Source: [Collinsella] massiliensis
GTDB taxonomy: Bacteria; Actinomycetota; Coriobacteriia; Coriobacteriales; Coriobacteriaceae
DNA: 43,292 nucleotides
Assembly: GCA_000333815.1 (NCBI GenBank)
Contig: CAPI01000094.1
Coordinates: 1 to 43,292, forward strand
Direction of reading: 5' to 3'
The notes beneath the pieces are model-generated. The model was given only the letters and a program-made list of their open reading frames with translations. It had not been told where the DNA came from and did not search any database. How positions within the stretch are numbered: position 1 is the stretch's first letter; each line of letters opens with the position of its first letter. Shown here in pieces: positions 3,031 through 34,040 of the stretch. Position numbers and translations under genes: made by a program.

Positions 3031-3077
3031 TGGTAGCCCGTACCAGATTCGAACTGGTGATCTCCGCCTTGAGAGGG
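3031..3077. repeat. Left attachment site (attL), partial tRNA-Glu
   Basis: 47 bp identical to 33994-34040: CCA end, T arm, variable region and the 3' side of the anticodon arm of tRNA-Glu read on the minus strand. Beyond 3077 the sequence no longer follows the tRNA, so this copy cannot make a tRNA. Flanking chromosome with the old terminator starts directly to its left. Confidence 0.9.
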
Positions 3078-14905: not shown

Positions 14906-15100
14906 ATGGAAATGGTCGATGTCATGTTGAGCATTGTGGCTTCCGTACTTTCGATTGTCGCAACCGTTATCGCCTTCAAAAACAAAAAGGATATTGATAA
15001 GCTCCGGGATCTCTATGAAGGCAACAAGATGAACGCTACTGGCAATGAAAACATTCAAGTTGTGGGTACCGGCAATCAGGTGAATACCCATGACAAGTAA
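14906..15100 (+). CDS. Single-pass membrane peptide of the ABC-3C locus
   Basis: 64 residues. An N-terminal hydrophobic helix (MLSIVASVLSIVATVIAF) is followed by a lysine-rich stop-transfer, a short helix (IDKLRDLYEGNK) and a closing GNENIQVVGTGNQVN segment. AAGGAGG sits 5 nt before the ATG. The end overlaps the next gene by 11 bp. The GN-x-NIQ-x-x-G-x-x-N-x-VN pattern recurs at the start of the next protein (GNDNIQILGDNNLVN), which suggests the two assemble through a shared beta-repeat and that this peptide anchors the partner at the membrane. Confidence 0.7.
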   Translation: MEMVDVMLSIVASVLSIVATVIAFKNKKDIDKLRDLYEGNKMNATGNENIQVVGTGNQVNTHDK

Positions 15101-15638
15101 TCGCCAGATTGCCCGGGGCAATGATAACATCCAGATTCTTGGAGATAATAATCTTGTCAATCCAACCGTGCTATTGCAACGGCGCACGTTGACGCACAGC
15201 TTCATCCATGATTTGCTCGACATTGTCTACTCTTTGCCCTCCTCCAAGGATGACTCCTACTCGCTGCAAAATCCAGCACAGATTCATGAGAAGCTGCGCT
15301 TCAACAATGCATATCGATACATGGCCATCATTGATAACCATGTCGATGATTATGTCCGCGTGGACGAGGTGATGAAGGATTATCCGAACAGCGAAGATAT
15401 TGTCAAAAAGCTTCGCGATATGTTCATTGTCGTTGCAGACTTTGATGACGAGGGCATCCCTTGCGTGGGTGATGGCGATGCTCAGCTAGATCGCATCAAG
15501 GACAATCTTTACGACACGATTGTCAACGATGCGAAATTCGATGCTGTCAACCATCCCGCCGAAAAAATCGAGCAGTTTTGCATCGCCCTCATCGCTTACG
15601 GCGTATCGAAGTGCAAGATTCTAGAAACGCCGGTGTGA
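15090..15638 (+). CDS. ABC-3C third component (C-terminal-domain type effector subunit)
   Basis: 182 residues. Residues 8-22 carry the GNDNIQILGDNNLVN motif matching the membrane peptide; the rest is helical (YRYMAIIDNHVDDYVRVDEVMKDY, KLRDMFIVVADF, a closing CIALIAYGVSKCKILE) in the manner of the C-terminal domain of ABC-three-component systems. Those systems are described as bacterial conflict systems with an SMC-like ABC ATPase, a middle component and a variable third component. No catalytic domain is visible here, so action may be through membrane localisation. Followed by the middle component after 1 bp. Confidence 0.65.
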   Translation: MTSNRQIARGNDNIQILGDNNLVNPTVLLQRRTLTHSFIHDLLDIVYSLPSSKDDSYSLQNPAQIHEKLRFNNAYRYMAIIDNHVDDYVRVDEVMKDYPNSEDIVKKLRDMFIVVADFDDEGIPCVGDGDAQLDRIKDNLYDTIVNDAKFDAVNHPAEKIEQFCIALIAYGVSKCKILETPV

Positions 15639-15639
15639 C

Positions 15640-15921
15640 ATGTTGCTTCTAGACAGAAATAACGAACCAACCAGTACGGTTTACTATCTTGCTGCGTCGA
15701 CATACGACTACGTTGGAAAGCATGATGGCATCGATGCATCGAATCTGTATCAAGGTGTCATGCTTGATGTCGTGGGAAAGAATGTGAGCTACGACTTTTT
15801 CCTGATGGCTCTGGATTTTCTATACCTGCTAGATTGTATCGCCGTTGATAAGAAAGGGGGCCTGCATGTTCATCAAGTCATTGCGAATCCGCAACACCGC
15901 AACGAATATAGTCATGCGTGA
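15640..15921 (+). CDS. ABC-3C middle component
   Basis: 93 residues, winged-helix-like. Starts MLLLDRNNEPTSTVYYLAAS, then DASNLYQGVM, SYDFFLMALDFLYLLDCI and ends in KGGLHVHQ. This YLAA/LDFLYLL/I-x-x-GG-wing pattern fits the small middle-component families of ABC-3C systems. It begins 1 bp after the previous stop and overlaps the ATPase gene by 56 bp, the usual tight coupling of these triads. Confidence 0.7.
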   Translation: MLLLDRNNEPTSTVYYLAASTYDYVGKHDGIDASNLYQGVMLDVVGKNVSYDFFLMALDFLYLLDCIAVDKKGGLHVHQVIANPQHRNEYSHA

Positions 15922-17638
15922 GGTCTCCTTCCACAAGGGGGCTAATTTCGTAGTAGATACAGAGGACTCAAAACGCCATAACAAGGTCGGCAAGACTACG
16001 TTCTTGAAGCTTATCGATGTTCTGATGGGCGCACAAAACAGGAGTCACATCTACACAGATCAAGAGACCAACACCGAAGCGATTGAGCTGCGCGACACCA
16101 TCAACAAAAAACGCATCGCCGCTGAGATGACCCTTTCGGAGAATCTTGACGCTCCATACGGCAAAACGGTCGAGCTCAAAGTTGAGCTGTTTCCAAGGGG
16201 TCGCTACTTCATCGACGGAGAAAGGATGTCCCAAACAAATTACAGATCGAAGCTTAATGAACTGCTATTCGGAATCGCAAACAACGTTCCGACGTTTCGC
16301 CAGCTCATCAACTCTTTCGTTCGAGTTTCGGTTGGCGGCGATGATAATGCTTTTCTCCGTACCCTGACAAGGGCGAGCATCGCGACGTATCGGAGTGTAT
16401 ACAATTTCTTGTTCGATATCTCCGATCCCGAGCTTGACAGCAAATTGAGCCAACTCAATGCTCAACTCAACCGAACAAGGGAATCGTTGCGTCAATACAT
16501 GCGTGTCAACGGCGTTGAAGATGTTGAGCAACAGCGTCAGATACTTGTTGCTCTGGAGGGGGAATACGCTCAAGCAAAAGCGCAAGCAGATGACATCTTC
16601 GATGCCGATGAGTACAAAAGCAACAGGGACGCAATTGCCTCAGTCCGGGCGGAGTATGCAAGCTTGGTCGATCAGCTTAGCGAGCTAGACTATAGAATCG
16701 GACGCAACCGAGAGGCCCTTAACAACGCAAGAGCAGAAAAGCAACGTCGAGCAGACCTCGAGCTCTCAAGGAGATTCTTCGATGAGGTCTGCACTATGCT
16801 GCCTAATCTCAATAAGACCTTTGAGGACATGGTCAGTTTTAACGATAAGCTATGTGATAACAAGATTTCGTACTTTGAGGATATCGAGAGAGATTTGCTT
16901 GATGAAAGGACCTCTCTTGAGAATGAGCAGAAGGCGCTCCTTGCAAGCAATAGTCAGTTTTTATCGCTTGTGGCAAAAGACCGTATTGACGAGTACGAGC
17001 GACTGTCCGCAAACCTTATGCAGCTAAGACAAGACATTGGCAGGTGCCAGGAAACGGTCGATACGCTTGATCGCTATGACCATGAGCTGGCATCTATTCA
17101 GGAGAATATTGCCAGCTATTCAACCGGCGGCTCCGCCCGCAAAGGCAAGGGTGGCGAATATCAAGAGATGATGAGTTCCTTCAATGGATACTTTACTCAT
17201 CTTGCTCAACAGATAAATGGTGAGAAGCCGATTCTTGTCTACTATCCTGACACCGATAAGTTTCCGGTCTCAATCACGGCAATATCTGGGTCCAGCACGG
17301 GTACGCGAAAGTCGCTCATAGCAGCGTTTGACCTAGCTTACCAACAATTTGCCATAGCCAATCGCATCCACACCCCCCGCTTTATCGTGCACGACGTTGT
17401 CGAAAACGTTGAAGGCGAAGATCTGCGCACTATAGTGAACGCAGCGAACGGCATTGACGCACAGTACATAGTGGCCGTGCTGAAAGAGAAGTTGGATTCC
17501 TCGAATATCCCAGAGGATGAGCAGTCGGCTTTACAGATTCTCCAATTGTCGGAGGATGACAAACTGTTTGAGGGTAAGACCGTCGACGAAGCCGAATCTT
17601 CTGACCGGATGATTGAGCAGCTTGCATCAATACCCTGA
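15866..17638 (+). CDS. DUF2326-type SMC-like ABC ATPase of the ABC-3C system
   Basis: 590 residues from the ATG at 15866 (AAAGGGGG upstream; frame open to 15845). Walker A lies at about 38-46 (HNKVGKTTF). A long coiled coil spans about 190-420 with a hinge-like break. Near the end are the signature-like ISGSSTGTRKSLIAAFDLA and the Walker B PRFIVHDVVENVEGEDL. This is the RecF/SMC-like build of DUF2326 proteins, the ATPase of ABC-three-component systems. It probably senses or binds nucleic acid and drives the partner subunits. Codon use is clearly more AT-rich than in the phage genes around it, indicating a separate origin. Confidence 0.8.
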   Translation: MFIKSLRIRNTATNIVMREVSFHKGANFVVDTEDSKRHNKVGKTTFLKLIDVLMGAQNRSHIYTDQETNTEAIELRDTINKKRIAAEMTLSENLDAPYGKTVELKVELFPRGRYFIDGERMSQTNYRSKLNELLFGIANNVPTFRQLINSFVRVSVGGDDNAFLRTLTRASIATYRSVYNFLFDISDPELDSKLSQLNAQLNRTRESLRQYMRVNGVEDVEQQRQILVALEGEYAQAKAQADDIFDADEYKSNRDAIASVRAEYASLVDQLSELDYRIGRNREALNNARAEKQRRADLELSRRFFDEVCTMLPNLNKTFEDMVSFNDKLCDNKISYFEDIERDLLDERTSLENEQKALLASNSQFLSLVAKDRIDEYERLSANLMQLRQDIGRCQETVDTLDRYDHELASIQENIASYSTGGSARKGKGGEYQEMMSSFNGYFTHLAQQINGEKPILVYYPDTDKFPVSITAISGSSTGTRKSLIAAFDLAYQQFAIANRIHTPRFIVHDVVENVEGEDLRTIVNAANGIDAQYIVAVLKEKLDSSNIPEDEQSALQILQLSEDDKLFEGKTVDEAESSDRMIEQLASIP

Positions 17639-17677
17639 TTAATCCATTCCGCCGGGAATCTTACAGAAGGTGGTTTC

Positions 17678-18055
17678 ATGCAACCCCACCGCGTAGCTAT
17701 AGCCGACCTCGAAGACCGTCCCGAGTGCGTCCACGCCGCCTACCTCGACCCCGCCGAGGAGTGGAACGGATGGGCGTGCCCCTACTTCGAGCGCGCCGAG
17801 GTCGAGCGCATGGCTGCGTGGCTGCCCGAGTTCGACGATTCGCTCGTCTACGACGAGGAGTCAGACGCCTTCAGCACCACCTACGATCCCGACCTCACCG
17901 AGACCTTCCCCGGCACAGACATCGACGGACGGCACCTGTACCCCATAGGAGCCGGCTCATGGACGTGGGTCATAGTTGACGAGAGCGGCGAGGAAACCAC
18001 CGCAGACGCATCGGCAGACGCGGTCACCAAAGCCGACGAGCACGCCCTCGCCTAG
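17678..18055 (+). CDS. Hypothetical 125-residue acidic protein
   Basis: Soluble, acidic (ADLEDRPECVHAAYL..., EFDDSLVYDEESDAFSTTYDPDL) with a WNGWACPYFERAEVERMAAWL segment and a GAGSWTWVIVDE strand. AAGGTGG precedes the ATG. No family that I can name with a function. GC-rich codon use, unlike the ABC-3C genes just before it. Its stop shares the palindrome CTAG (18052-18055) with the stop of the converging restriction gene. It could belong to either defence system or to neither. Confidence 0.6.
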   Translation: MQPHRVAIADLEDRPECVHAAYLDPAEEWNGWACPYFERAEVERMAAWLPEFDDSLVYDEESDAFSTTYDPDLTETFPGTDIDGRHLYPIGAGSWTWVIVDESGEETTADASADAVTKADEHALA

Positions 18056-19527
18056 CCAACCACCTCAGCAAGGCGCGCGGCGTCCAACTCCCGTCCGCCC
18101 ACATAGGCGTCGAACACCGCCTCTGCCGGCAGCGCGTACAGCTCCACCTCGTTCGAGAACGGCGGCTCCTCGGCAGCGATCACGCCGGGAAAGCGCACGC
18201 GCCCCAGATGCTCAACGGCGTCACCGCACGACGGCACGAGAAACGCGTTCACCACCCTGGAGAACCCGTGCGCGAGCACAAAGTCGCGGTACGCGGCCTG
18301 ATACAGGAACTGCTTGGTCACCGACTCCACGCCCGGCACGCCGCCAACACGCTCGCCCAGCAGCGGCGTGTAGTACTTGGCGTCGAGGATGGCGAACGTC
18401 CCGCCCCCGGCGGCGGCGCGCCCGCCGGCACCTCGCACCGTCACGATGTCCGGGATCAGCGTCGCAACCTCGCCGCACGCCCGCTCCTCGCCGGCGCCTA
18501 ATGCAGCCCACTCCGGTCTCGGGATGACATCGATAAGCCGCTTTTCCGCCATCCCCGCGAACGGCGGAGCCAGCTCAATCCCCAGCTCCCCCAGTCGAAC
18601 GGCCAGCACGTCACCGAACGCGACCTTGCACGCCGTCTCCCACACGTGATGGAAGCTTGACGTCCCCAGGCACAGAGGCGCGTCCGACGTCGCAGACATG
18701 CCCTCGTCGCGCACATAGCGCACGAGGAGGTCGATTACGTCCTGCTTCCACGTGACGAACTGCACCGCCCGCTCGCGCTCCAGCCGGTACGCCACGAAGT
18801 CGGCGTCCCCAAAGTCCGCCACGGAGGAATCGCTCAGCCACACCTCGTCGAGCGCCAGCAGCTGAGCCAGCCCGCTCTCCTGCATGAAGCGCGAGCACTC
18901 CGTAAGCACCGCGCGGTGCAGTCGCGTTACGAAGTCAGAGGCGTCGGCGTCAGTCTCCACGGTCTTGTAGTCAAAGTAGATGGGACGCCCATCCCGCACG
19001 AAGGGAAGGTTCGCCGCGATGGTGCGCTCCCAGCTGATGTTGCCCGACCCGTTGTCCGCAATGGTGCGCACGTAGTTAGAGTAGACGCCATACTCGTCAT
19101 ACATCTCGAGCAGCGAGAGCATGAGCGCCAGGCGGTCGTTCGCCCCCATGCCCTCCTCAGTCGCGGCGGCAATGCTGGCGTAGCTTCCACCGCTCTTGCG
19201 AAGCACCCTGAACACCTGACTCATAGCTGCGCACGTGGCGTCATCGGGGCGCTTCGGGTCAATCTCGGGCAGATACTTCGGGTACACGACAATGCAGACG
19301 CTCTCCACTAGGGCAAGGCCCACGTAGACGAACTGATAGGTCCCGCGCGGCGCGCTCTCTCCAAGCGGATCGTACTCTTTCGGCTCGTCACCCGTCCTCA
19401 ACCGAAGCACGCCGTGCGCGCACAGAAGGGCGATGTAGCGGTCAGCGTCATCCAGCCCGATGCCGAGCGTCCGCGCGAGACTCACTGGCGAGTGGAACGA
19501 ACGCTCGCGAATGTAGACCGTACGCAT
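18052..19527 (-). CDS. LlaJI/McrC-like restriction subunit
   Basis: 491 residues from the ATG at 19527 (frame open to 19590), 4 nt after the McrB-like stop. Reads as the LlaJI-family restriction partner. It has an N-terminal region with winged-helix look (FHSPVSLARTLGIGLDDADRY) and a middle domain (WERTIAANLPFVRDGRPIYFDY). Its C-terminal nuclease core has LIPDIVT..., GGTFAILDAKYY and KQFLYQAAYRDF, i.e. the D-(x)n-D-A-K arrangement of PD-(D/E)XK nucleases. Together with the AAA+ subunit it should cut unmethylated or foreign DNA. Last gene of a four-gene operon. Confidence 0.75.
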   Translation of the reverse strand: MRTVYIRERSFHSPVSLARTLGIGLDDADRYIALLCAHGVLRLRTGDEPKEYDPLGESAPRGTYQFVYVGLALVESVCIVVYPKYLPEIDPKRPDDATCAAMSQVFRVLRKSGGSYASIAAATEEGMGANDRLALMLSLLEMYDEYGVYSNYVRTIADNGSGNISWERTIAANLPFVRDGRPIYFDYKTVETDADASDFVTRLHRAVLTECSRFMQESGLAQLLALDEVWLSDSSVADFGDADFVAYRLERERAVQFVTWKQDVIDLLVRYVRDEGMSATSDAPLCLGTSSFHHVWETACKVAFGDVLAVRLGELGIELAPPFAGMAEKRLIDVIPRPEWAALGAGEERACGEVATLIPDIVTVRGAGGRAAAGGGTFAILDAKYYTPLLGERVGGVPGVESVTKQFLYQAAYRDFVLAHGFSRVVNAFLVPSCGDAVEHLGRVRFPGVIAAEEPPFSNEVELYALPAEAVFDAYVGGRELDAARLAEVVG

Positions 19528-19531
19528 GGCG

Positions 19532-21472
19532 CTACTCCGCACCGTCGGCAACCGGCTCCTCCGCAGCGCCCGCAACCTCGCCAGACTCAAGCAACTCAGT
19601 ATCGCTCACATTGGCCGGCGAGAAGGACGGCAACTCGCGCATACCCCTGAACGCAAGCTCTCCAAAACTCTCGAAGTCCTCGCAAACATCCGAGTACGTC
19701 GCACGGCCTTCGTGAGAGAACACCTTCGAAGCCTTGGTTTTGGCGGCATCCTCGAAGAGGTAGAGCAGCACCTTGTCCTTGAAAACCTGAGTGAAGCCGT
19801 CGGGATCAGCGAGCCTCGCGGGCGAGATGAAGAACGGCCCGAGCAGCTTGTCCTCGTTCACGCCCGCATTGAGCAGCACCTGGTTGATGCCACGCCTCAA
19901 AGCGTCCCAGCTCACCATGCGCGCGGGCGTCCCGACCGGCACGGCGTAGCCGGCGATCTTGTCCGAGCCCTTGTCTATGCCCATGTAGCGGAAGTCCCAG
20001 CGACGCTTGAAAGCGGTGTCCATCGGGAAGACGCCCTGATCCGCGCTGTTCATGGTTGCCCAGATGAACATGTTGGGCGGCAGCGACAGCCGCTCCGCCT
20101 CGTCCCTGAGACGCAGCTGTTCGGAGAGTAACCGCTCCGGGTCTTGGATATACGCAGTCGTGGCGTACTCCGGTAGGAACACGCGCAGGTACTCGCGCAT
20201 CTCGCGCGGCGCAGCAATCTCGTACTCGCTGCGACCGTCGGAGTCGCGGTCAAGCAGCTGGAACACGTCACCGAACGCGGCCGCCGGGTTCGCGCGATTG
20301 ATCTCCTCAACGACAAGCAAGTAGTTCGTGCCGGGGTTCTGCACCGCAGCGATGTATGTCTCCAGGAACGGCCCCGGAACGAAACCGTAGCTGATCTCGC
20401 TCTGGGTGCTCTCGGTTCCATCTTCATCGGTCACCGTGCGCATCGTCGTGACCGGCTTGTAGCAGCCCACGAACTGAGCGTAGGTGTAGTCGGGGTGGAA
20501 GGTGACGCGCCTGACGTTCCTCTTGTCGAAATACTTCTCCGCCTGCCGTGCGAGCCGGTACGACTTGCCCGTGCCAGGAGCCCCGAAGAAGATGAGGTTG
20601 CGGGGCTCGGGGACGCTTGACGGGGCGGAAACGACAGAATGATCGAGAAAAGTCGGGCGTCCAACAATATCCATCACAGCAGGCAGCGGGTCGCCGATGC
20701 CCGAATAGGTCGTAGGGCACTCGTGAGCAATCAGGCTCATGAGCTCAGCGGTTCTCTTGTAGCAATCTTCGCAATCAAACGGTACGACGCCGAGAAGGAC
20801 AGCGCCAAAGTGTCGCAGGACGTCGGCCGCAGCCTTCGGAAGAGCGCTGCAGTGATCTGCTGCATAGAGGATGTCATTCACCCGTCGCTCGAAATCGAGC
20901 GTGAAGAACATGGCTTCTCCGGTTGGCTTACCGTCTTCCGTCGCGTACTTACCCTGCTTAGAGAGGCCGCCACTGAACACATAGTCCTTGGGAATGAAGC
21001 AAGCCGAACCGTCATCTTCGAGCTCGCAATCGAGCCACATAGATCTCAGCCAGTAATTTCCCCTCGTAAGCGGCGAGAGTTCAAGAGAGTCCGCCATGTT
21101 GATGGTCGTTGTCTCGGGAAGCATCATGACAGCCGGCAACAGCAGGCTCGGTCTGACCTTCCCCCCAAGACTTAGCTTCATCTGCTGGCTTCCGGCTCCG
21201 CGAGGAGAAACGGGGTAGCGATACGACTCCTGCGTCCCCAAGTCAACTTTGCACACGCTGCCGTCAGCCCTATGGAAGCGAAGCGCAAAAGTGGCAGTCA
21301 GGCCACCGAGCGTCGAGGCTGAGGCTCTTCCGCCATCTTTCCCGGCAAACGCCCCGCCAAGGAATGCCTGGCCTCCGCCGCTGTTCGCGTTGTAGTCAAG
21401 ATGGAAGTCGCACTCCTCGCCCTGATAGGTCCGGTAATCCTCGGTCTGCTTGAAGTACGACAAGGCACTCAC
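19532..21472 (-). CDS. McrB-like AAA+ GTPase, LlaJI-type restriction subunit
   Basis: 646 residues from a GTG with AGAGG upstream. Residues 1-280 are a family-specific N-terminal region, probably DNA-recognising. Walker A GAPGTGKS is at 297-304. Walker B is LLVVEEINRANPAAAFGD, the sensor region ATMNSADQGVFPMDTAFKRRWDF, and the RRW arginine pair is typical of McrB. McrB-type proteins form hexamers that hydrolyse GTP and translocate DNA for the McrC-type nuclease. Starts 3 bp after the second methyltransferase, completing a LlaJI-like set (M1, M2, R1, R2). Confidence 0.85.
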   Translation of the reverse strand: MSALSYFKQTEDYRTYQGEECDFHLDYNANSGGGQAFLGGAFAGKDGGRASASTLGGLTATFALRFHRADGSVCKVDLGTQESYRYPVSPRGAGSQQMKLSLGGKVRPSLLLPAVMMLPETTTINMADSLELSPLTRGNYWLRSMWLDCELEDDGSACFIPKDYVFSGGLSKQGKYATEDGKPTGEAMFFTLDFERRVNDILYAADHCSALPKAAADVLRHFGAVLLGVVPFDCEDCYKRTAELMSLIAHECPTTYSGIGDPLPAVMDIVGRPTFLDHSVVSAPSSVPEPRNLIFFGAPGTGKSYRLARQAEKYFDKRNVRRVTFHPDYTYAQFVGCYKPVTTMRTVTDEDGTESTQSEISYGFVPGPFLETYIAAVQNPGTNYLLVVEEINRANPAAAFGDVFQLLDRDSDGRSEYEIAAPREMREYLRVFLPEYATTAYIQDPERLLSEQLRLRDEAERLSLPPNMFIWATMNSADQGVFPMDTAFKRRWDFRYMGIDKGSDKIAGYAVPVGTPARMVSWDALRRGINQVLLNAGVNEDKLLGPFFISPARLADPDGFTQVFKDKVLLYLFEDAAKTKASKVFSHEGRATYSDVCEDFESFGELAFRGMRELPSFSPANVSDTELLESGEVAGAAEEPVADGAE

Positions 21473-21475
21473 CTC

Positions 21476-22372
21476 TTACTGCTCAACGCCGTTCTCATAT
21501 TTTAAGACACGTTCGGCAACGTATTTCGCCAATGCTGGAGGAACGGCATTCCCGATGGCAAGCTCGACGCTCGTCTTTGCGCCCTCAAGCTTGAACTCCT
21601 CGGGAAAGGACTGCAGGTAACTGCGCTCCTTCGTCGTGAGAGCACGAACGCCGTCTTCAATTGCCGCTGCATCGGCATGATGTCGCTTGTAGTTCTCCGG
21701 TATCGGCCTGTTAATTCCACGTATCGTCGCGGAGGGCTCGTCAACGGAGAAGACGGCACGCCGGTTGTAGCTGCGCGGGTGCATGTAATAGTACTGCGTG
21801 CCGAGCTTGTCACCCAGATAATCCCGCACGGTCATCTGCTTTTCCGCCATGCCCTCAACGAACGACTCGTCGAAGAACCCATCCTCGGCGCCGAGCCTGC
21901 CGACCAGAATGAAGCGCTTTCTTGCCTGGGGCACCCCACAGCGGCTCGCATCGAGCACGCGAGAGCTCAATCCATATCCGGCATCCTTGAGCATCGCCTT
22001 CATTCGCGGCAGCGTGCCGAACCTCTCGATGTTGTAGACGTTCTCGAACACGACCCATTCAGGCAATACGCCCGCGACAATCTCGGCGAACCGGATGGTA
22101 AGGTTCGCCCGCGCCCCCTCAGTGCGCTTGCCCGCAATCGAGTAGTCCTGACAGGGAGGCCCTCCCATGATCAAGTCGGGCCTCAGTTCCTTGATGGTTT
22201 CAACGGAATCCTCGTCACAGAGATCCTTCTCATAGATGGGATGCGTGAAGTTCGCGCGGTAAATCTCCACTGCAGGCTTCCAGTTGTCGAACGCGGCGAC
22301 AACCTTAAATCCAGCCTGCTCGAAACCAAGAGACATGCCGCCGCAACCAGAGAAGATGTCGACGGCTCTCAT
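21476..22372 (-). CDS. C5-cytosine DNA methyltransferase, second
   Basis: 298 residues, short form. Motif I AVDIFSGCGGMSLGFE (3-18), catalytic motif IV GGPPCQDYS with Cys74, motif VI FENV, motif VIII QARKRFILVG, motif IX region EPSATIRGINRPIP and motif X IGNAVPP are all present. Protects the restriction site of the system; in characterised LlaJI each of two methyltransferases handles one strand of an asymmetric site. Clear paralogue of the upstream enzyme, from a tandem duplication. The ATG overlaps the stop of that gene (ATGA, 22369-22372). Confidence 0.9.
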   Translation of the reverse strand: MRAVDIFSGCGGMSLGFEQAGFKVVAAFDNWKPAVEIYRANFTHPIYEKDLCDEDSVETIKELRPDLIMGGPPCQDYSIAGKRTEGARANLTIRFAEIVAGVLPEWVVFENVYNIERFGTLPRMKAMLKDAGYGLSSRVLDASRCGVPQARKRFILVGRLGAEDGFFDESFVEGMAEKQMTVRDYLGDKLGTQYYYMHPRSYNRRAVFSVDEPSATIRGINRPIPENYKRHHADAAAIEDGVRALTTKERSYLQSFPEEFKLEGAKTSVELAIGNAVPPALAKYVAERVLKYENGVEQ

Positions 22373-23388
22373 TCGTTACCACCATTCTTGTTGGAGATGT
22401 AGCCCATCAGAGCTCTTGCGACGTAATTGGCCAGGTTAACCGGAACGGCATTGCCAATCATCGTGTTCACGTCTGACTTACTCCCGAAGAACTCGAACTC
22501 CTCGGGGAAGGTCTGAATGTAGCTGCGCTCCTTCGGAGTCAATATGCGCGTCTCGCTCACGGGAGCGGAGTCATTGGGGTTGCCCTTATACCCCGGCGGT
22601 ATAGGACGGTCGACCGCGCGGATGGTCATAGACGGTTCGTCGATGCTGAACACGCCTCTCCGGCTGTAATTCGTCGGCACGCGAAAGTAGTGATCGATCC
22701 CAAGCGAGTCGCCGAGATAGTCTCTGATCGTGAGAGGCTTTTCGCTCAGCCCCTTGTCGAGCACATCATCAAGAAAGTTATCCTCTTCACCGATGCCCCC
22801 GATAACGAACATGCGCTTACGGATTTGCGGCACCCCACAATATGCGGCATTAAGCACCTTGCAGGTAAGACCATACCCCGCCTCTCGAAAGGTATCGCAA
22901 GCACGCTTGAACGAGCGCGTGTTTCTTATGGTCGCGACATTCTCCATCACGAACCACTGCGGCCTTACTCGGGAAACGATCTTCGCGAAAGCAACCGAGA
23001 GAATGGCTCGACCGCCGTTCTCGTCCTGATGCCCAGCCGTCGAGAAATCCTGACAAGGCGGCCCGCCGAAAACGACTGTAGGGGCAAACTCTCGGACGAG
23101 AGGGACGGAAGCATCAACATCGGAGAGATCATGCTTAAAGATGGGATGATCGAAGTTCTTTCGATACACCTCGACGGCGGGCGTCCAGTTGTCGAACGCA
23201 GCCAACACGTTGAACCCAGCGTTCTCGAAGCCGAGGGACATGCCGCCGCAGCCTGAGAAGAGGTCCACAGCAGTGATACTTTTGCTCTGTACCCGATTCG
23301 CAGACAACGCGTTGACCTGCCCTTTCTTCCCGATGCTGTTGCACCGTCCGTTATGACGCCTTTCCTTGCAAGCAGAAGATTTTACCAT
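22369..23388 (-). CDS. C5-cytosine DNA methyltransferase, first
   Basis: 339 residues from the ATG at 23388 with AGGTG upstream. The first 37 residues are basic and outside the family, so a later TTG at 23307 is possible. Motifs: DLFSGCGGMSLGFE, GGPPCQDFS (catalytic Cys112), MENV, QIRKRMFVIGG, EPSMTIRAVDRPIP, IGNAVPV. First gene of the four-gene LlaJI-type operon; a TAAAAT box overlaps the upstream start. Codon use is less GC-rich than the portal gene upstream. It follows 840 bp without a convincing ORF. Confidence 0.88.
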   Translation of the reverse strand: MVKSSACKERRHNGRCNSIGKKGQVNALSANRVQSKSITAVDLFSGCGGMSLGFENAGFNVLAAFDNWTPAVEVYRKNFDHPIFKHDLSDVDASVPLVREFAPTVVFGGPPCQDFSTAGHQDENGGRAILSVAFAKIVSRVRPQWFVMENVATIRNTRSFKRACDTFREAGYGLTCKVLNAAYCGVPQIRKRMFVIGGIGEEDNFLDDVLDKGLSEKPLTIRDYLGDSLGIDHYFRVPTNYSRRGVFSIDEPSMTIRAVDRPIPPGYKGNPNDSAPVSETRILTPKERSYIQTFPEEFEFFGSKSDVNTMIGNAVPVNLANYVARALMGYISNKNGGNE

Positions 23389-23588
23389 GCACCACACCTG
23401 GTCCGCGGCTCGTCAATCCACCAACTCGCAATCTCCCGCATCAACCTGGGCCATCAAACAATGGATTAAGCATCAACTAAGCAATCGAGACGAACGAGAA
23501 GAACGTGCGCTTGAAGCGTCAACGGATGCCCAGCCAACAACAATGCGACCACAGCCAGCACACTGCCGCCATCACAACAACCCCGCAT

Positions 23589-24228
23589 GTCTACCGCTGG
23601 ATATTCCCGCCGCCAGTCCTGGCCGCCTGCCCGGCCGCGCGCTGCGTTGACGAGGATTGCCCGCAGCCCGGCCGCCCGCGCTCCGGGTGCGCTACCGGGC
23701 CGTTCGCGCCACGCGCCAGCCATGGCGCATGCAAGTCAACCGGGACGCCCTTGGGCGCATACCGCACGCGTCTTCACCGCGGCTCCGGCAGCCCGCTACG
23801 CGGTCTGCCTCCGCATGTTCGGGTTCAGCCACGCACGGTATGCGCCCAAGGCCTAATGCAGGGGGAACTGGCGCCATGTCAGCCGCGCGTCGCGCCCGTC
23901 CAGCGGCGCGCACCCTGCGCACGGGCGGCCGGGCTGCTGCCGCAAGCGGGCTGTCCGCACGCAACCGGTCAGCCGTCCAGGGCGGGCGGCATACCCGCTC
24001 GCGCATCAGCCGGTGCGCATGCGCCACGGTGCCGAGAGCTACCCGCATACCCGTCATCCGCGCGGGGCGCGGATCGGCTTCGCGACAACCTGCAAGCGTC
24101 CCTGGGAGGCCCGTAGCGGCCCCGTTTCTCCTCAGCCGAACTCCGGCCCTCAGGCGGCGACCAAGCCGCACGCAGCCTCGTGTGAGCCCGCACAGCGCCA
24201 TCCCAGGCTTGCGACGCGTCCGAAAGCC
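23589..24228 (-). ncRNA. Candidate large structured RNA, about 640 nt
   Basis: There is no convincing ORF between the portal stop and the methyltransferase. The region is packed with perfect hairpins. In minus-strand order these are: 24228-24206 (GGCTT/AAGCC), 24169-24154 (GCGGC/GCCGC), 24123-24106 (6 bp), 24074-24056 (8 bp, CCC loop), 23927-23893 (7+5 bp with an 8-nt bulge), a 22-bp helix 23851-23830/23770-23749 enclosing a 9-bp helix with one G-A mismatch, 23731-23710 (9 bp, UGGC loop), and 23700-23666 (6 bp). All five wobble pairs in these helices are G-U on the minus strand but C-A on the plus strand, so the RNA is co-oriented with the phage genes. Size and prophage location recall GOLLD and ROOL RNAs; identity with them is not shown. 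Ends are approximate. Confidence 0.55.
23749..23851 (-). repeat. 22-bp helix and apical stem inside the structured RNA
   Basis: CCTTGGGCGCATACCG (23749-23764) is the exact reverse complement of 23836-23851. Inward, positions 23765-23770 and 23835-23830 add six pairs on the minus strand, three of them G-U. The enclosed loop folds again: GCGG/CCGC, then GGCAG-A-CCGC / GCGG-G-CTGCC (23787-23809) closed by a 3-nt loop. A nested stem of this length is not expected by chance even at this GC content. Confidence 0.8.
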
Positions 24229-25725
24229 CTATGCTCCCCGAACGGCACCGGCAACGCCCGCTTCGAGCGCGCTGGAGACGTTCCCGCGCGCGCCATCGGC
24301 ATCAGCGTCTACCGCGAGCCGCCTCGCGGTTGGCTCGTCCTCCCCGTACCACTTGGCGCGGTACTCCCACGCGTTCATGAGGCCCGAGGCCACCTCCGCC
24401 ATGTCCTGGCGCTTCTCGGCGCTCGTGTCCGTGATGATGCTGTCGTCGAACGTGACGCGCACCTCACCCTCGCCCGGGAGCTCGACCCCGAGCGAGCGCG
24501 AAGCCGCCATGACGGCCCTGCATATCCCAGCGATAGCGCCCTCCAGCGCATGCTCGTGCCTGCGGATGTTGCGCATCAGCGCCGAGTTGTCCGCCGAGAC
24601 CTCCGTCGCGGTCTTCACGTACCCCGCTCCGTCGAAGTCGAAGTACCCCAGGCCGAAGCCCGTCAGGTCGCCGAGCATCTGCAGCGCGCACCTGAAAGCC
24701 CTCACCTGAGCGTCGGTCCTCAGCGCCGGCGCAAACTCCTGAATCGTGTCCTCCGTGCTCATCACCTTCCGGAACACGGTGCAGTCCTGCCGCCCAAACG
24801 GTATCGAGACCTTGCGCCCCCTGCCGTCGGTCTCCTGGTCGAACATCACGTCACTCAGGAACACCCGCATCTTGCCGTTGTCGATCTCCGAGATCATCGC
24901 GTCGAAGGCGAGGTCCACCGCCTGGATAGCGTCCACCGCGTCCGCGAACACGCTCTGCCCGTACGGGCTCATGTCCACGCGCGTATTGTCCACGGCCGGC
25001 TTCACGATGGCGAAGGTGGGATAGGGAGAGCCCGTCTCGTACACGGGGCACACGCCCGCAGGCGCGACCTCGTTGCCGTGCTCGTCAAAGCACACCGTGA
25101 CGATCCGATAACCGCCCCTCCCCACGCTCTCATTAGGCGAGAAGGACAAAGAGGCCGAGAAGTCCGCCCCAGCACCCTTGAGGTGCATCTGCAGCTGGTC
25201 GACCGCGCGCCCCCGCCAGAACGCCCGCGTGACGAACGCGCACTCCGTCACGCCCTCCTCGTCCCACGTGAGCGGTATCACCATGCGTGCGTCGTAGTGC
25301 CTAATGCGCACGCTCCCCGCATCCGCGTCCACCCAGAGCGCCCACGCGCCCGTCCCCATGCCAAATGCCTTGACCACGGTTGCCTGTGCCGCCGCCATGA
25401 AGCCGCTTTGGGCGAGAAACCCCTCGAGCCAGTCCGTGCACTCCTGCGTCCCGCACACCACCTGCGTCTTGTCGTTCAGCAGCAGCGACCCCCACTCCCG
25501 GCACACCCGCATCGCCGGATGAATCGAACGCCTGTGCACCTCGTACATGCGCCCAACGCCGTCGGTGTCCTTGTAGTCGTAGAACGACCCGCACGCCTGC
25601 ATCCACTCGTGCCATGCGCGAATGTGCGGCTCCATCGCCTCCAGCGGCAGCGCGAATCCGAGCGCCCGCAGGTACTCCCGCACGTGCTCCGGCACCCAGT
25701 ACTCCTCCTCGTACGCCTGCCCCAT
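24229..25725 (-). CDS. Phage portal protein (SPP1 type)
   Basis: 498 residues, normal portal length. Typical stretches: REWGSLLLNDKTQVV, the wing/clip region PYGQSVFADAVDAIQAVDLAFDAMISEI, KTATEVSADNSALMRNIRRHEHALEGAI (the long portal helix) and FDDSIITDTSAEKRQDMAEVASGLMNAWEYRAKWYGEDE at the end. It forms the dodecameric ring through which DNA is packaged. The ATG follows the small gene at 25726 with no gap, and GGAGG lies about 9 nt upstream. In phages the next genes would be MuF/protease/scaffold; here a structured RNA and defence genes intervene. Confidence 0.85.
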   Translation of the reverse strand: MGQAYEEEYWVPEHVREYLRALGFALPLEAMEPHIRAWHEWMQACGSFYDYKDTDGVGRMYEVHRRSIHPAMRVCREWGSLLLNDKTQVVCGTQECTDWLEGFLAQSGFMAAAQATVVKAFGMGTGAWALWVDADAGSVRIRHYDARMVIPLTWDEEGVTECAFVTRAFWRGRAVDQLQMHLKGAGADFSASLSFSPNESVGRGGYRIVTVCFDEHGNEVAPAGVCPVYETGSPYPTFAIVKPAVDNTRVDMSPYGQSVFADAVDAIQAVDLAFDAMISEIDNGKMRVFLSDVMFDQETDGRGRKVSIPFGRQDCTVFRKVMSTEDTIQEFAPALRTDAQVRAFRCALQMLGDLTGFGLGYFDFDGAGYVKTATEVSADNSALMRNIRRHEHALEGAIAGICRAVMAASRSLGVELPGEGEVRVTFDDSIITDTSAEKRQDMAEVASGLMNAWEYRAKWYGEDEPTARRLAVDADADGARGNVSSALEAGVAGAVRGA

Positions 25726-26010
25726 CTACATCGCCCTCCATCGCTTACGCCCAACCGGCTCCCCTGGCAACTCCTCCAGCCCCCGCTCCTTTTCATTCGC
25801 TTGGCGAGAAGAACGCGCTACTTCCGTCACACGCTTCCGCACAGCCCCTTCATGCCCCTCAGGCTTTAGCTTTTGATGCCGAGGATCCCGCCCGCCCATC
25901 AACGGCACATCGCATCGTCCGTCCTCCCTACGTTTAAGCTGGCGAGAAGAACGTCCGCTACCTCGCGTTTTCAGTTGGCAGCTGAATATGCCGAGAAGCA
26001 CGTCCCTCAC
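25726..26010 (-). CDS. Small basic protein between terminase and portal
   Basis: 94 residues, Arg/Lys-rich, starting at a GTG that overlaps the terminase stop (GTGA, 26007-26010) and ending at the base before the portal ATG. No family recognised. SSRQ recurs twice (RSSRQLKR and ARSSRQANEK) because the underlying DNA contains a repeat (see 25802-25996). Either a real coupled gene or an ORF that simply spans a repeat-bearing spacer; position favours the former. Confidence 0.4.
   Translation of the reverse strand: MRDVLLGIFSCQLKTRGSGRSSRQLKRREDGRCDVPLMGGRDPRHQKLKPEGHEGAVRKRVTEVARSSRQANEKERGLEELPGEPVGRKRWRAM
25802..25996 (-). repeat. Three copies of a CGTTCTTCTCGCCA-like repeat
   Basis: On the minus strand the word CGTTCTTCTCGCCA occurs exactly twice, in 25802-25815 and about 138 bp away in 25939-25955 (as GGACGTTCTTCTCGCCAGC). 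A diverged copy (GACGTGCTTCTCGGCA) lies near 25990-26003 at the terminase stop. GTAGCG precedes two of them. Possible protein-binding or packaging repeat, or the trace of tandem duplication. Confidence 0.45.
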
Positions 26011-27284
26011 CCTCTCAGCACGTCATCCATCATCGCGTAGCGCACCGCGTCGATGGAGTGGTCATCACCGTCAGGAATCTCGTCGATCCAGCGCCCATCA
26101 CGGTCGCGTAGGAACTCCTTGCAGGTGAACTCCTCGAACGTCCTCGGGCAACGCGCGGGGTCGATGACGATCTCCCTCAGACCAGCAAGCCAGTCATAGG
26201 AGAGCCTCCGCATCCGCGCCTTCCTCGCAGGGTGTACGCGGATGCCGAGCTCGCGCCGCCAGGTTGCCATCTGCACCTTCGAGTCGGGAGTGTCGTCGCA
26301 CCACACCATCTGGTCGTGGAAGTAGGGCTCCGCGCCCGGCTCGTCGGCATAGGTGAGCGCGTCCACCACGATGCGCCCCGTGTCGGCAGGCATCATTTTG
26401 TTTGCCGAGTGTTCCTCGAAGACCGTGAGTCTGCGCGCGCCCGGCTCCCAGCCGCAGCGCACGAAGCGCCACGGGTCGGGGAACCAACCCCAGTCCACGC
26501 CGTTGCGAATGCGCTCGAAACCTCGTACACGCTCGTCGGTCAGCCTCGCCTCCACGATGTTGTCGAAGACCGCTCCGCCCGTCCCGGTCACCTCGCCGAG
26601 GTATTCCCAGCGCCACGCGCGCTCGTTCTCCTCGCGCAGGTACTCCGCCTCCTCGATGAAGGGCGCGCCGAGCCACCCCGGCCGCGCCTCCACCACGTCG
26701 AGGTACGAAGAGCGCCTAACGAGCGTGTCCGCCCGCCGCCTGCGCTCAATGCACTCCACGTTCGCCCAGCTCCACATCGTCTTGGGCGGGTTGTAGCTGT
26801 AGAAGATCCAGAAGTCCTCGCCGCCACGGCGGAGCGAGTTGAGAATGGAGCGAACCGCCTCGATGCCGTCGAACTGGTCGAGCTCCTCGAACCACGTGAT
26901 GGCGCAGTATCCGCGCGTGAACTTCACGCCCTTGAGCTTGAGCGGGTCGTCGGCCCCGCGGAACACGATGCGCTGCCCCGTGGGCAGGTAGACGATCTCC
27001 ATCGGAGAGAGCTTCGCCTTGAAGTACGCCGAGAGCCCCAGCGCCTCAACGGCCCAGAGCACCTGCTGGTACACCGAGTCGCGCAGCGTGTTGGAGAAGC
27101 GCCGCACCACGCACGCGTTCGCATAGGGAAAAGCCACAACGAGAAGAACGATGCACAGGCTGATGAAGCTCGACTTCGTGCTCCCTCGGCCTCCGTGCAG
27201 CCAGTAGTGCGTATGCCCGTGCGCCATGACGTCACCGAGCACGTCGTGGAAGCGCGGGATGCAGAGGTCGGCGGCGCTAATCAT
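26007..27284 (-). CDS. terL: Terminase large subunit (PBSX/Terminase_3 type)
   Basis: 425 residues from the ATG at 27284, which overlaps the small-subunit stop by 8 bp. ATPase: Walker A GGRGSTKS, Walker B AITWFEELD with the catalytic Glu, and the coupling segment FYSYNPPK. Nuclease: GVDWGWFPDPW, WCDDTPDSK and GDDHSIDAVRYA supply the acidic triad of the RNase-H-like domain. Motor and nuclease that packages DNA into the capsid through the portal. Intact by eye, with no missing motif. Confidence 0.9.
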   Translation of the reverse strand: MISAADLCIPRFHDVLGDVMAHGHTHYWLHGGRGSTKSSFISLCIVLLVVAFPYANACVVRRFSNTLRDSVYQQVLWAVEALGLSAYFKAKLSPMEIVYLPTGQRIVFRGADDPLKLKGVKFTRGYCAITWFEELDQFDGIEAVRSILNSLRRGGEDFWIFYSYNPPKTMWSWANVECIERRRRADTLVRRSSYLDVVEARPGWLGAPFIEEAEYLREENERAWRWEYLGEVTGTGGAVFDNIVEARLTDERVRGFERIRNGVDWGWFPDPWRFVRCGWEPGARRLTVFEEHSANKMMPADTGRIVVDALTYADEPGAEPYFHDQMVWCDDTPDSKVQMATWRRELGIRVHPARKARMRRLSYDWLAGLREIVIDPARCPRTFEEFTCKEFLRDRDGRWIDEIPDGDDHSIDAVRYAMMDDVLRG

Positions 27285-28283: not shown

Positions 28284-28468
28284 TGGGCCGACCCCGCAAA
28301 GCCCATCAGAACCTGTGAAAGCGAGGCGCAGGAATCAACGCCATAGAAAAGGTTGTCAAGCAACCTTTCTATAGGTGTTGATTGCCTAGCTTTCCCGCAC
28401 CGACTGCCTGTCAATTGACGAGCTTGACAATCTCTGAGCTTTCCCTGACAGGCTTTCGAGTCACTCAT
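28280..28468 (-). CDS. Small 62-residue coupled protein
   Basis: Starts MSDSKACQGKLRDCQARQ and ends in IERLLDNLFYGVDSCASLSQVLMGF. The ATG lies inside the end of the primase gene (GATGAGTGA) and the stop overlaps the next ATG. Both overlaps argue for a real gene. No family recognised; four cysteines in the first 40 residues could bind metal. Confidence 0.5.
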   Translation of the reverse strand: MSDSKACQGKLRDCQARQLTGSRCGKARQSTPIERLLDNLFYGVDSCASLSQVLMGFAGSAQ

Positions 28469-30560
28469 CGGCTCCACCCAACTCCAGCAAATTGGTGCCA
28501 AGCGGCGGCTGCCAAGCCGTCCACGCTATGTGGTTGCGCTTCTGACCCTTGCCGTCCATCTGCATCTTCACAAGCTGATACTCATCAAAGTCGATGAGGT
28601 AATCCTTGATGGTGTTTGGTGAGAGCGCCGTAACATTCTGCACCGTCGAGAAGGGCACGGGTTCACCGCCGTTCTTGTCGAGAAGATCTTTGATTCTCTT
28701 GCGCGCCTTCTCCTTGCGCTTCTCCTTCTGCGCGGTCTTCTTGCTCGCCTCGGCGCGCCGAGCGGCCTCGCGCGTGGGTGCCTTGTCGAACTTGCCGTTG
28801 TCATCCCGAAGGAACATGCCGTCGATGCGCACAGCGTTGAAGTCGAGGTTCTTATTGGCCTTCGACTTTTTGAAGCTGCGCAGGTCGGTCGACACACGCA
28901 CCACAACGGCGCCATCGGGCAGGTCTGCCACGTCCTCCTCGCTCGGGGCGAGCTCGGTGAGCGACCACATCGCGCTGTAGTTGCGCCCCAGGGTGCCCGC
29001 CCCACTCACGCGGTCGCGAGCCTCCTTGAGGTCCTGCGGCCCCTTGCTGAAGTGATGCATGTAGATGACGCCCGCGCCGGTCTTGCTTGCAATCATCTTG
29101 AGGTATCCGAGCGTTGTCCTCGCGTCAGCGTTGCTGTTCTCGTCACCCGCGAACAACGGGTAGATTGGGTCAATGATGACAACGTCAGGACGATAACCGC
29201 TTCCGCAGACTACCTCAGCGATGTCCTTGACCGTCATCTCCGGCCTATCGTCCGTGTGGGCAATTCGCACATGCGAAGCAACATCAGCAGCAATCCCAGA
29301 GGCGAGAGATGCCTCGACGATGCGGTTCACATACTCCGCCTGGTTCATCTCAGAGTTCACCACGAGAATCCTCTCGCACTGCGTGAACTCGAACCCGAGA
29401 AGACCCGTGCCCGTCGCAAAGGCAACGACCATTTGCGCGGCAAGGAATGTCTTACCGACCTTGGGCGCCGCGCCGACAAGCATGATGCCCTGCTTCCGAA
29501 AGGTGTTCTCGATCAGCACGGGAGGAAGCTCCTGCAACTCGGACGGAATGGGAATAAACAAGTTCTCGAAGCGCGCGGCGACGTCCTTCGACTCTTCGGC
29601 GTCCTGGTCACCAGCATGAGGACGATGCGCCTCCGCCCAGCTGTGGAAGTCCCGCGCACCCATGTCCGTGCCGAGAAGCGACTGTCGTTCCGTCCCTCGG
29701 CTCGCCCCCGCCAGCCTCGTGAGGCGGCTCGCGTCTTTGTTGGCGGCGTCAACCTTGAGCCCAGCGGCGTCGCAGAGCTCGTGCAGCAGCCGCACGCGAT
29801 CCTCATAGTGGTTGGGCCCGTCCGCCTCCACGCGCACCAAGGCGTGAACGGACTTCCCGCCGCTTTTGGTCAGCGCCGTGATGGGCAGGTCGAGCTCGCT
29901 CATGATGCGAATCTGCTCGTCGACGGGAATCTCGTCGCTCTCTATGAGGGCGTGTCGCCACGCCGTTGTCCTTCCCTTGCCGCGCCCCTCCCCGTTGGTG
30001 GGGTTCTGGCAGACCCATATCCCCGCCTCAGGCTCGTATCCGTCGAGCACGCCTCCAAAGCCTTCGCTCTGCAGGCGCGCAATGAGGTCGTCCCGCTCAT
30101 AGCACGTGCCGCCATCCGCGGGCTCCCACTTGCAACGCTTCTCCGACCAATTCGCCCGCACGGAGAGATTCACGTACTCGCCCGGCTCGAAGAGCGCCAC
30201 GAGCTGCGCCACGGCCTGCTGCACCGGAGAGAGGTCCATGGCGGAGGGTTGGGCGGCCGAAGGAGCCTGGATAACAGAGCTGTCGGAGGCATCCTCCACC
30301 CAGCCTGCACGCTTTGCGTGCCAGAAGAGCGTCCCCGCGGTGATGCGCCCGTTCTCGCTCACATGCTCGAAGAGCCGGCGCGCCTGTGCCTCATCGTAGT
30401 TGTCTGGGTCGGAGGATGACCATCGAAGAAAGGTGTCGACGTCCCCGCCAGCCGCCTTATAGCTGATGCCAATGTTCTTCCATGTCTCGTAGTCTCGCGG
30501 TGGCACCATGGAGAGAAGCGCGCTGTCGGCACGCTCTTTGGAGACAACGCGTCCGCTCAT
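28461..30560 (-). CDS. Primase / RepA-type AAA ATPase replication protein
   Basis: 699 residues from the ATG at 30560 (frame open to 30614; ribosome-binding site weak). Residues 20-90 look like a PriCT-2 module (ETWKNIGISYKAAGGDVDTFLRWSS). About 120-300 resembles an archaeo-eukaryotic-type primase (SELDLPITALTKSGGKSVHALVRV, ASRLTRLAGASR). About 370-560 is a RepA/AAA_25 ATPase with Walker A GAAPKVGKTF, Walker B DVVIIDPIYPLF and GAGVIYMHHFSKG. The tail is lysine-rich then a winged-helix-like end. It should start and unwind DNA for autonomous replication after excision, as in phages and satellites. Confidence 0.75.
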   Translation of the reverse strand: MSGRVVSKERADSALLSMVPPRDYETWKNIGISYKAAGGDVDTFLRWSSSDPDNYDEAQARRLFEHVSENGRITAGTLFWHAKRAGWVEDASDSSVIQAPSAAQPSAMDLSPVQQAVAQLVALFEPGEYVNLSVRANWSEKRCKWEPADGGTCYERDDLIARLQSEGFGGVLDGYEPEAGIWVCQNPTNGEGRGKGRTTAWRHALIESDEIPVDEQIRIMSELDLPITALTKSGGKSVHALVRVEADGPNHYEDRVRLLHELCDAAGLKVDAANKDASRLTRLAGASRGTERQSLLGTDMGARDFHSWAEAHRPHAGDQDAEESKDVAARFENLFIPIPSELQELPPVLIENTFRKQGIMLVGAAPKVGKTFLAAQMVVAFATGTGLLGFEFTQCERILVVNSEMNQAEYVNRIVEASLASGIAADVASHVRIAHTDDRPEMTVKDIAEVVCGSGYRPDVVIIDPIYPLFAGDENSNADARTTLGYLKMIASKTGAGVIYMHHFSKGPQDLKEARDRVSGAGTLGRNYSAMWSLTELAPSEEDVADLPDGAVVVRVSTDLRSFKKSKANKNLDFNAVRIDGMFLRDDNGKFDKAPTREAARRAEASKKTAQKEKRKEKARKRIKDLLDKNGGEPVPFSTVQNVTALSPNTIKDYLIDFDEYQLVKMQMDGKGQKRNHIAWTAWQPPLGTNLLELGGADE

Positions 30561-30630
30561 GCCCCATCGCCGCCCGGGAGCCTGTGACGTGCCCTCACAA
30601 TGGAGACGCAGCAAATGGTAAGCTGTGCCC

Positions 30631-32497: not shown

Positions 32498-32558
32498 GGG
32501 CGTGATGGAATAGCAAAAGACCTGCTCACGACGCTCGCCAACCAAGGAGGTGAATGTA

Positions 32559-33869
32559 ATGGCAAAAGGAGACGGAAGCATTACGGAGGTAAAGAAGCCC
32601 GACGGAACCAGCTACGCCCCCAAGCACTGGAAGGTCCGCATCGACCTCGGTACGAACCCTATCACCGGCAAGCGCGACGTGGTCTCAAGAAACATCAAGG
32701 GAACCAAGTCCGACGCCTGCAAGCTGCGCGACCAACTCAAGGCAGACCTCGAGAACGGTCTCTCGGCCAACGCCGACAAGATGACCTTCGCCGAGTTCGC
32801 GGAGCAGTGGCAGCAAGCTCGCGAGACGGCGGCGGAGATCAGCAAGACGCGCTTGCGCCGGGAGCGCACCATCATCGAGGACATGTGCTCCTACATCGGA
32901 GCCATCAGGCTTCGCGACATCACTGCCCAGACCATCGAGGGGCTCTACATGAAGATGCGCTGGGACAAGACGGAGGAGAAGGGCAAGTGCAGCGGCACCA
33001 CCATGAACATGATCCACAAGCTGCTCAAGCAGATCCTCTCGCGTGCCGTGGACTACGACCTCATCCTGCGCAACCCCGCCGAGAAGGTCAAGGCGCCGCG
33101 ATGCGACACACCGGACCGCCGCTCCCTCACCACCGCTGAGGCACGTCAGCTGCTCGCGACCATCGACGAGGCAGAGTACGAGGCGTATGCGTCCCGCGAC
33201 GCCATCGAGGAACGGCAGGAGAAGCGCGGCGACACCTCGGAGCGGAGCTACCTGCGAGGCCTGTCCAGCATCGGCAACGTCATGGCGGCACGCATCGGCC
33301 TCGCAACCGGTATGCGACGCGGAGAGGTCCTGGGCCTCACGTGGGGCCATATCAGCTTCGCACGGGGAACCATCCGCGTCACCCAGTCGGTCACGACCTA
33401 CGGTGAGGTGAAGGAGCCCAAGACCGAGGCGGGGAAGCGCGTCATCGCCGTGGACGAGAAGACCATCGAGCACCTGAGGCGGTGGAAGCAGTTCCAGCGA
33501 GAAGAGCTCGCCATTCTGTCGCTCGAACAGACGAGGGACACACCCGTCTGCTGCAACGACAAAGGCGGCCTCATCGCCCCGACGAACTTCTCGCGCTGGT
33601 GGCGGTCCTTCACGAAGGCCCACGGTTTCGAGGGCCTGAAGTTCCATGAGCTCAGGCACACCCAGGCAACGCAGCTCGTCGCCGGCGGCATGGACATGAA
33701 GACCGTCCAGCACCGGCTCGGCCACGCCTCGGCAACCCTGACGATGAACCTCTACGCCCACGCGCTGCCCGAGAACGACGCCCAGGCGGCTCAGCTCATC
33801 GGCAGCCTGTTCTCCGAAACGCCGAACGAGCAGGCAAGGCAGGAAGGAGCTCTCAGGGTCGCGGTCTAA
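32559..33869 (+). CDS. int: Tyrosine integrase
   Basis: 436 residues from the ATG at 32559, with AAGGAGG 8 nt upstream; a GTG at 32550 is less likely because it overlaps that site. N-terminal arm-binding domain (VRIDLGTNPITGKRDVVSRNIKGTKSDA), core-binding domain (TFAEFAEQWQQ...), then the catalytic domain with Arg253 (TGMRRGE), His363 and Arg366 (HELRHTQAT), His389 (LGHAS) and Tyr399 (LYAHAL). All catalytic residues are present, so it should be active. Lies 124 bp from attR, and is transcribed towards the tRNA gene. Confidence 0.92.
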   Translation: MAKGDGSITEVKKPDGTSYAPKHWKVRIDLGTNPITGKRDVVSRNIKGTKSDACKLRDQLKADLENGLSANADKMTFAEFAEQWQQARETAAEISKTRLRRERTIIEDMCSYIGAIRLRDITAQTIEGLYMKMRWDKTEEKGKCSGTTMNMIHKLLKQILSRAVDYDLILRNPAEKVKAPRCDTPDRRSLTTAEARQLLATIDEAEYEAYASRDAIEERQEKRGDTSERSYLRGLSSIGNVMAARIGLATGMRRGEVLGLTWGHISFARGTIRVTQSVTTYGEVKEPKTEAGKRVIAVDEKTIEHLRRWKQFQREELAILSLEQTRDTPVCCNDKGGLIAPTNFSRWWRSFTKAHGFEGLKFHELRHTQATQLVAGGMDMKTVQHRLGHASATLTMNLYAHALPENDAQAAQLIGSLFSETPNEQARQEGALRVAV

Positions 33870-33993: not shown

Positions 33994-34040
33994 TGGTAGC
34001 CCGTACCAGATTCGAACTGGTGATCTCCGCCTTGAGAGGG
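33994..34040. repeat. Right attachment site (attR)
   Basis: 47 bp identical to 3031-3077. Forms the 3' part of the intact tRNA-Glu from the anticodon loop to CCA, so insertion restored the host gene. Confidence 0.9.

Follow-up and report, generated by a model that had tools for sequence, protein, structure and literature searches.

Prophages of Coriobacteriales gut bacteria carry a previously undescribed, strongly base-paired, rod-like element, about 390 bases long here, which we interpret as a structured RNA and which lies just after the portal gene, where the phage's own genes meet swappable anti-phage defence genes. The paired shape is clearly conserved by evolution, whereas transcription and function were not examined and no RNA-seq data were at hand. 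Our starting point was a preliminary description of a 43,292-nucleotide stretch of [Collinsella] massiliensis DNA (contig CAPI01000094.1, assembly GCA_000333815.1; hereafter the window, or W), which had proposed that positions 23589-24228 hold a large structured RNA encoded on the minus strand. Sequence comparison bears out that observation, although with corrected limits, and it supports the reading of the region as a minus-strand structured RNA in a phage element between portal and defence genes.

A predicted rod-like hairpin at the border of prophage and cargo genes

To define the context of the element, we first annotated the window and found that it contains a complete prophage of about 31 kb, bounded by an exact 47-bp att repeat in the 3' part of a tRNA-Glu gene. 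As shown in Table 1, the order is TerS, TerL, an SPP1-type portal, the hairpin, a LlaJI-like restriction cluster and an LmuB-like gene, and then the head genes, so that cargo is inserted between portal and head genes. We had also considered that the element might belong to a capsid-less satellite, but this was rejected when the att repeat and the major head protein were located. The plus-strand part of the cargo has a low GC content (47%) and also includes small phage-family proteins of unknown function, possibly a Lamassu-like or candidate defence system.

Table 1. Coordinates of the hairpin, its helices and the surrounding prophage features in the window
Position	Strand	Feature	Basis
23608-23991	minus	Rod-like hairpin (RNA strand = minus); homology among relatives starts and stops here	Homologue boundaries; covariation; folding energy
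23985-23991	minus	5' arm of the closing helix (partner 23608-23614); sequence differs between groups but stays complementary	Aligned termini of copies
23608-23614	minus	3' arm of the closing helix	Aligned termini of copies
23959-23983	minus	5' arm of the basal rod, pairs with 23616-23640; single A-G-type mismatches every 3-5 bp; kept in the short (100-204 nt) forms	Covariation
23616-23640	minus	3' arm of the basal rod	Covariation
23830-23851	minus	5' arm of the 22-bp helix, CCTTGGGCGCATACCGTGCGTG (read 23851-23830)	Sequence; six pairs changed on both sides
23749-23770	minus	3' arm of the 22-bp helix, CGCGTGCGGTATGCGCCCAAGG (read 23770-23749)	Sequence; six pairs changed on both sides
23787-23809	minus	Apical hairpin GGCAG-A-CCGC-GTA-GCGG-G-CTGCC (5 bp, A-G mismatch, 4 bp, 3-nt loop); also found in the TerL-portal copies	Comparison of copies
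23495-23504	minus	GTTCTTCTCG repeat unit, about 100 nt after the hairpin's 3' end, same orientation	Comparison of copies
25805-25814	minus	GTTCTTCTCG repeat unit	
25943-25952	minus	GTTCTTCTCG repeat unit	
27140-27149	minus	GTTCTTCTCG repeat unit	
24229-25725	minus	Portal gene (SPP1 Gp6-like), directly upstream in transcription sense	Annotation
18052-23397	minus	Defence cargo next to the hairpin: two C5-cytosine methylases, an AAA protein scored as a type II restriction component, a LlaJI-type restriction protein	Annotation
15090-18055	plus	Further cargo in opposite orientation	Annotation
15845-17638	plus	LmuB / PDC-M68B-like protein	Annotation
13145-14161	minus	Major head protein, on the far side of the cargo from the portal	Annotation
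28461-30614		Primase	Annotation
32550-33869		Integrase	Annotation
33994-34040		47-bp piece of the tRNA-Glu gene	Exact repeat
3031-3077		Exact copy of the 47-bp piece (att repeat)	Exact repeat

We next tested the structural claims of the preliminary description. The 22-bp helix is present, with three G-U pairs, and the helices at 23710-23731 and 24106-24123 carry one G-U pair each, so that all five wobble positions are G-U on the minus strand, as had been claimed. To ask whether such pairing exceeds chance, we folded the 382-nt core, which gave a minimum free energy of -258.8 kcal/mol on the minus strand (shuffled mean -218, z -6.1) and of -229.5 on the plus strand (z -3.8). The minus strand forms one long, nearly unbranched hairpin, and the region is also a 382-bp imperfect palindrome, 68% identical to its own reverse complement (E 3e-19). 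However, several points had to be corrected. The conserved element spans about 23608-23991 rather than 23589-24228, the stem at 24106-24123 is not kept in the closest relative (L063; loci of relatives are labelled L and a number), and in the conserved fold 23710-23731 pairs long-range with about 23867-23894 rather than with itself. Of the three helices cited, only the 22-bp one belongs to the conserved fold. The stronger strand signal is provided by A-G mismatches, not by G-U pairs.

Distribution and context of related copies

Direct DNA comparison revealed copies in other Coriobacteriales, about 50 relatives in total, most of which lie directly downstream of the same portal gene, while a minority lie without a portal. 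A genome scan with the portal gave 47 loci, of which 25 have the hairpin downstream of a portal of 62-96% identity, all in portal orientation, and most of the Coriobacteriales loci that seem to lack it end soon after the portal. Two loci with long downstream sequence (L086, L089) show no clear hairpin, L087 is unclear, and L072 has a sense-strand structured stretch right after the portal without BLAST similarity. Distant portals of Firmicutes have no hairpin, a phylum-wide search gave only chance-level hits outside Coriobacteriales, and searches of named phage and plasmid collections gave no match to the hairpin itself. A covariance model was not built, since the element exceeds the calibration limit and artificial joining of its arms would not find natural long copies. 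The copies fall into two sequence groups, the window/Atopobiaceae type (alignment A1) and a Collinsella type (alignment A2), and both have the same plan, a long rod with single mismatches every few base pairs and three-base bulges. Lengths run from 100 to 541 nt, and the short forms lack the tip and keep the base.

Some phages carry two or more copies around the portal. Many Collinsella-type phages have further related structured copies between TerL and portal, and some have two after the portal around a small cargo gene. In the TerL-portal gaps of Collinsella-type phages (L071:9525-9593, L079:9441-9507, L082:9553-9634 and others) we also observed a second, longer structured stretch with serial 'stem-A-stem-loop-stem-G-stem' hairpins separated by GGAG, possibly a sister RNA family, and in the gap of L070 (3576-4797) a roughly 300-residue open frame that looks by eye like a GIY-YIG homing endonuclease. 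The unit GTTCTTCTCG, whose role is unknown, occurs 6 times in the window (0.13 expected) and clusters in the late region on the portal strand. In relatives it forms tandem 9-mer arrays just 3' of the hairpin; it follows many copies in the same orientation, eight in tandem in L075 (array at 12355-12428), and another array lies in L061 (9834-9889).

The cargo next to the hairpin is mostly defence and comprises restriction systems of types I, II and III, GmrSD-like, AbiD and IetA-like proteins and, once, an MFS transporter. The first cargo gene is co-directional in some loci, usually starting 85-300 nt downstream, and convergent in others, so the element is not just a leader of the cargo operon; we rejected that reading in general because many cargos face the hairpin. 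At least eight loci carry copies without a portal nearby (L055, L056, L061, L178, L179, L183, L185, L187), near type I, type III and GmrSD-like restriction genes or genes of unknown role, so the portal is not always needed. Among these, L055 keeps everything from the portal's last bases through a type I system, so it looks like a deletion remnant. The restriction-gene neighbours of several portal-less copies raised the possibility that the element belongs to the defence cargo, as a regulatory or functional RNA of restriction and other defence genes. We consider this very unlikely, since the same RNA goes with unrelated systems and with genes facing it, and the copies between TerL and portal lie away from the main defence genes.

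Conserved pairing and selection on one strand

To test if the predicted structure is maintained by compensatory change, we examined pairing in A1, where 97.3% of cells pair and 26 of 104 pairs have a change on both sides, against 15.8 +/- 2.2 in shuffles (0 of 500) and 2-4 when partners are slid. Lack of covariation in the 22-bp helix had been named in advance as an outcome that would speak against an RNA; in alignment A3, of W and its three nearest types, 17 pairs changed on both sides, and six of these lie in the 22-bp helix (UA to AU, UA to CG, GC to AU, CG to GC, UA to AU, CG to GC). Moreover, the closing helix reads TGCCGCC, TGCGCCGCC, CTGCCCGCCGCC or CCACACCCCACAGCCACCCGC in different loci, with the matching other arm each time.

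To ask without bias which strand is selected, copies were folded with Watson-Crick pairs only and isolated mismatches were counted on the portal strand, giving A-G 186, G-T 26, G-G 25, C-T 14, C-C 10 and A-C 6. Although the copies are related and these counts are therefore not independent, by column 8 of 13 single-mismatch positions in A1 and 5 of 9 in A2 are mostly A (5' side) opposite G (3' side), which is what one selected strand leaves. In addition, each of 14 copies tested has a lower minimum free energy on the portal strand.

A conserved reading frame was another outcome that the preliminary description had set as counting against an RNA. Long open frames exist on the plus strand, but stops occur in all RNA-strand frames of the 11 homologues, and one-base indels between homologues break any frame on the other strand too, so that no frame is conserved and a coding region was rejected. 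G+C is about 72%, yet chance stems in GC-rich DNA, or a disguised gene, are already refuted by the covariation, in line with the z of -6.1. In five other loci (L111, L096, L136, L180, L184) the portal frame runs 99-108 nt into the hairpin's 5' arm, which encodes the portal's C-terminal low-complexity tail of about 35 residues, so there the hairpin is part of portal mRNA. The designation as RNA rests on the covariation, the strand asymmetry and this indirect observation, and a strand-specific DNA hairpin is not formally excluded. No terminator-like site was found in the element on either strand, and no sigma-70-like promoter just upstream, although that search did not cover other promoter types.

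Behaviour of the element at the DNA level

Since the element is a near-palindrome, we also considered that it works as DNA, either as an imperfect palindrome of the ERIC/MITE type or as a folded single-strand recombination site that marks or mediates exchange of cargo blocks. Several findings fit this view. Interiors are deleted symmetrically about the dyad in the 100-204 nt forms, and portal-less copies sit beside restriction genes. In two lineages the hairpin is inverted in place between its terminal arms while the flanks keep their orientation, namely in L136 (9662-10132; same phage L184, 8764-9234) and in L061 (9956-10322): L060 with flanks aligns co-linearly to L136 at 80% over 976 bp, but the hairpin itself matches at 94% in reverse, and L075 and L061 show the mirror case. 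Furthermore, W and L104 are 90% alike from inside the hairpin through the restriction cluster but only 74% in the other arm, so an exchange point lies in the hairpin. The palindrome thus also has consequences for DNA, which keeps a recombination border alive as a rival.

On the other hand, the strand-specific A-G and G-T bias is not expected for double-stranded DNA, the position after the portal is fixed, and no recombinase is constantly linked. Copy number is low, with 1-4 matches per genome, self-complement matches included, and with matches in 9 of 100 relatives and 35 of 398 class members at E<=0.001, the weakest being chance-level short matches. In a search for a target-site duplication at W, the longest shared flank was 4 nt, AGCG, and did not abut both ends; as empty sites were lacking for comparison, this does not settle whether the element was inserted. 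Altogether, we regard a DNA function as unlikely but still live.

Discussion

We propose that the element encodes a new family of rod-like structured RNA, read on the same strand as the phage late genes and lying where the late block (TerS-TerL-portal) meets exchangeable cargo. That the structure is real and selected on one strand is nearly certain, and that it acts as RNA is probable. The conserved pairing, the strand-specific selection, the position, the presence of several copies in some phages and the limits of distribution are demonstrated by sequence comparison, whereas membership in the late transcript and any action in cis are our inference, drawn from position, orientation and multiplicity only. 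Under the explanation that we tentatively favour, a nascent or processed RNA would act in cis to shield late transcription from the foreign cargo, either by helping RNA polymerase pass the cargo's terminators so that the head genes beyond are still made, or by cutting or protecting the portal transcript at the border. We prefer a put-like antitermination role, because the hairpin sits upstream of the cargo even when the cargo points the other way, and several copies per late region fit a cis site better than one trans RNA. However, passage of RNA polymerase through downstream terminators was not assayed, the inversion in two lineages would put the RNA off the late strand, and the portal-less copies also count against this view.

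A more speculative and unlikely possibility, which our data do not rule out, is a new class of phage RNA that serves as a molecular border at junctions between late genes and defence cargo. It would let a prophage accept and swap foreign defence genes in either orientation inside its late operon without losing head-gene expression, and by inverting in place it could switch this on or off. The family has statistical support for its fold, is absent from Rfam and from the named phage and plasmid collections searched, and is found in many Coriobacteriales prophages. We found no description of it in the literature searched, which leaves out most subscription journals and preprints, and searches on Coriobacteriia/Collinsella prophage RNAs gave nothing relevant. 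Its place at a defence-gene exchange site makes a concrete question testable, namely how a temperate phage keeps its late operon working while carrying large, independently expressed defence islands between portal and head genes.

The preliminary description had likened the element in size and setting to GOLLD and ROOL, while allowing that it may be a separate family. GOLLD and ROOL are likewise large structured RNAs of phages and prophages of unknown function, and GOLLD rises during lysis while ROOL can be as abundant as 16S rRNA (PMC12286853). The covariance-model search against Rfam that had been suggested as a check does not support the likeness: at the gathering cut-off only the tRNA was found in the whole window, and no GOLLD, ROOL or OLE match appeared for 23300-24500 even at E up to 10, the hits to MIR1151 and Magnesium-II being far below their cut-offs. 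The element is also one rod instead of an ornate, multi-domain, cage-forming fold, is GC-rich, shorter and length-variable, occurs in several copies in some phages and is bound to the portal/cargo border, not to tRNA islands. A stand-alone, trans-acting phage RNA of the GOLLD/ROOL sort, perhaps abundant late in infection or self-assembling, would fit the large, highly structured, phage-borne element on the late strand, but we consider it unlikely, though live, because the tip is dispensable, as judged from the length range, two or more copies per phage lie at borders, and no sigma-70-like promoter was found just upstream, other promoter types not being covered; abundance and self-assembly of a discrete RNA were not measured here.

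The HK022 put RNA, a nascent antiterminator (PMC9378689), is what the element might work like, as a phage cis RNA upstream of terminators, but we claim no membership; put is much smaller and acts in the early operons, and a sequence relation was not examined. ERIC/MITE-type elements (PMC2229807) are likewise intergenic imperfect palindromes with internal length variants, whereas the present element is of low copy number and phage-anchored, with strong compensatory evolution and strand-specific mismatches, and with no target duplication found at W, subject to the reservation given above. Intrinsic terminators share a GC-rich hairpin at a transcript border, but the present hairpin is hundreds of bases long with no U tract after it, and its 3' flank is A-rich rather than T-rich. 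Finally, phage morons and prophage defence hot spots also place exchangeable cargo at a fixed site inside a prophage, but here the border itself is a conserved structured RNA, repeated at several borders in some phages.
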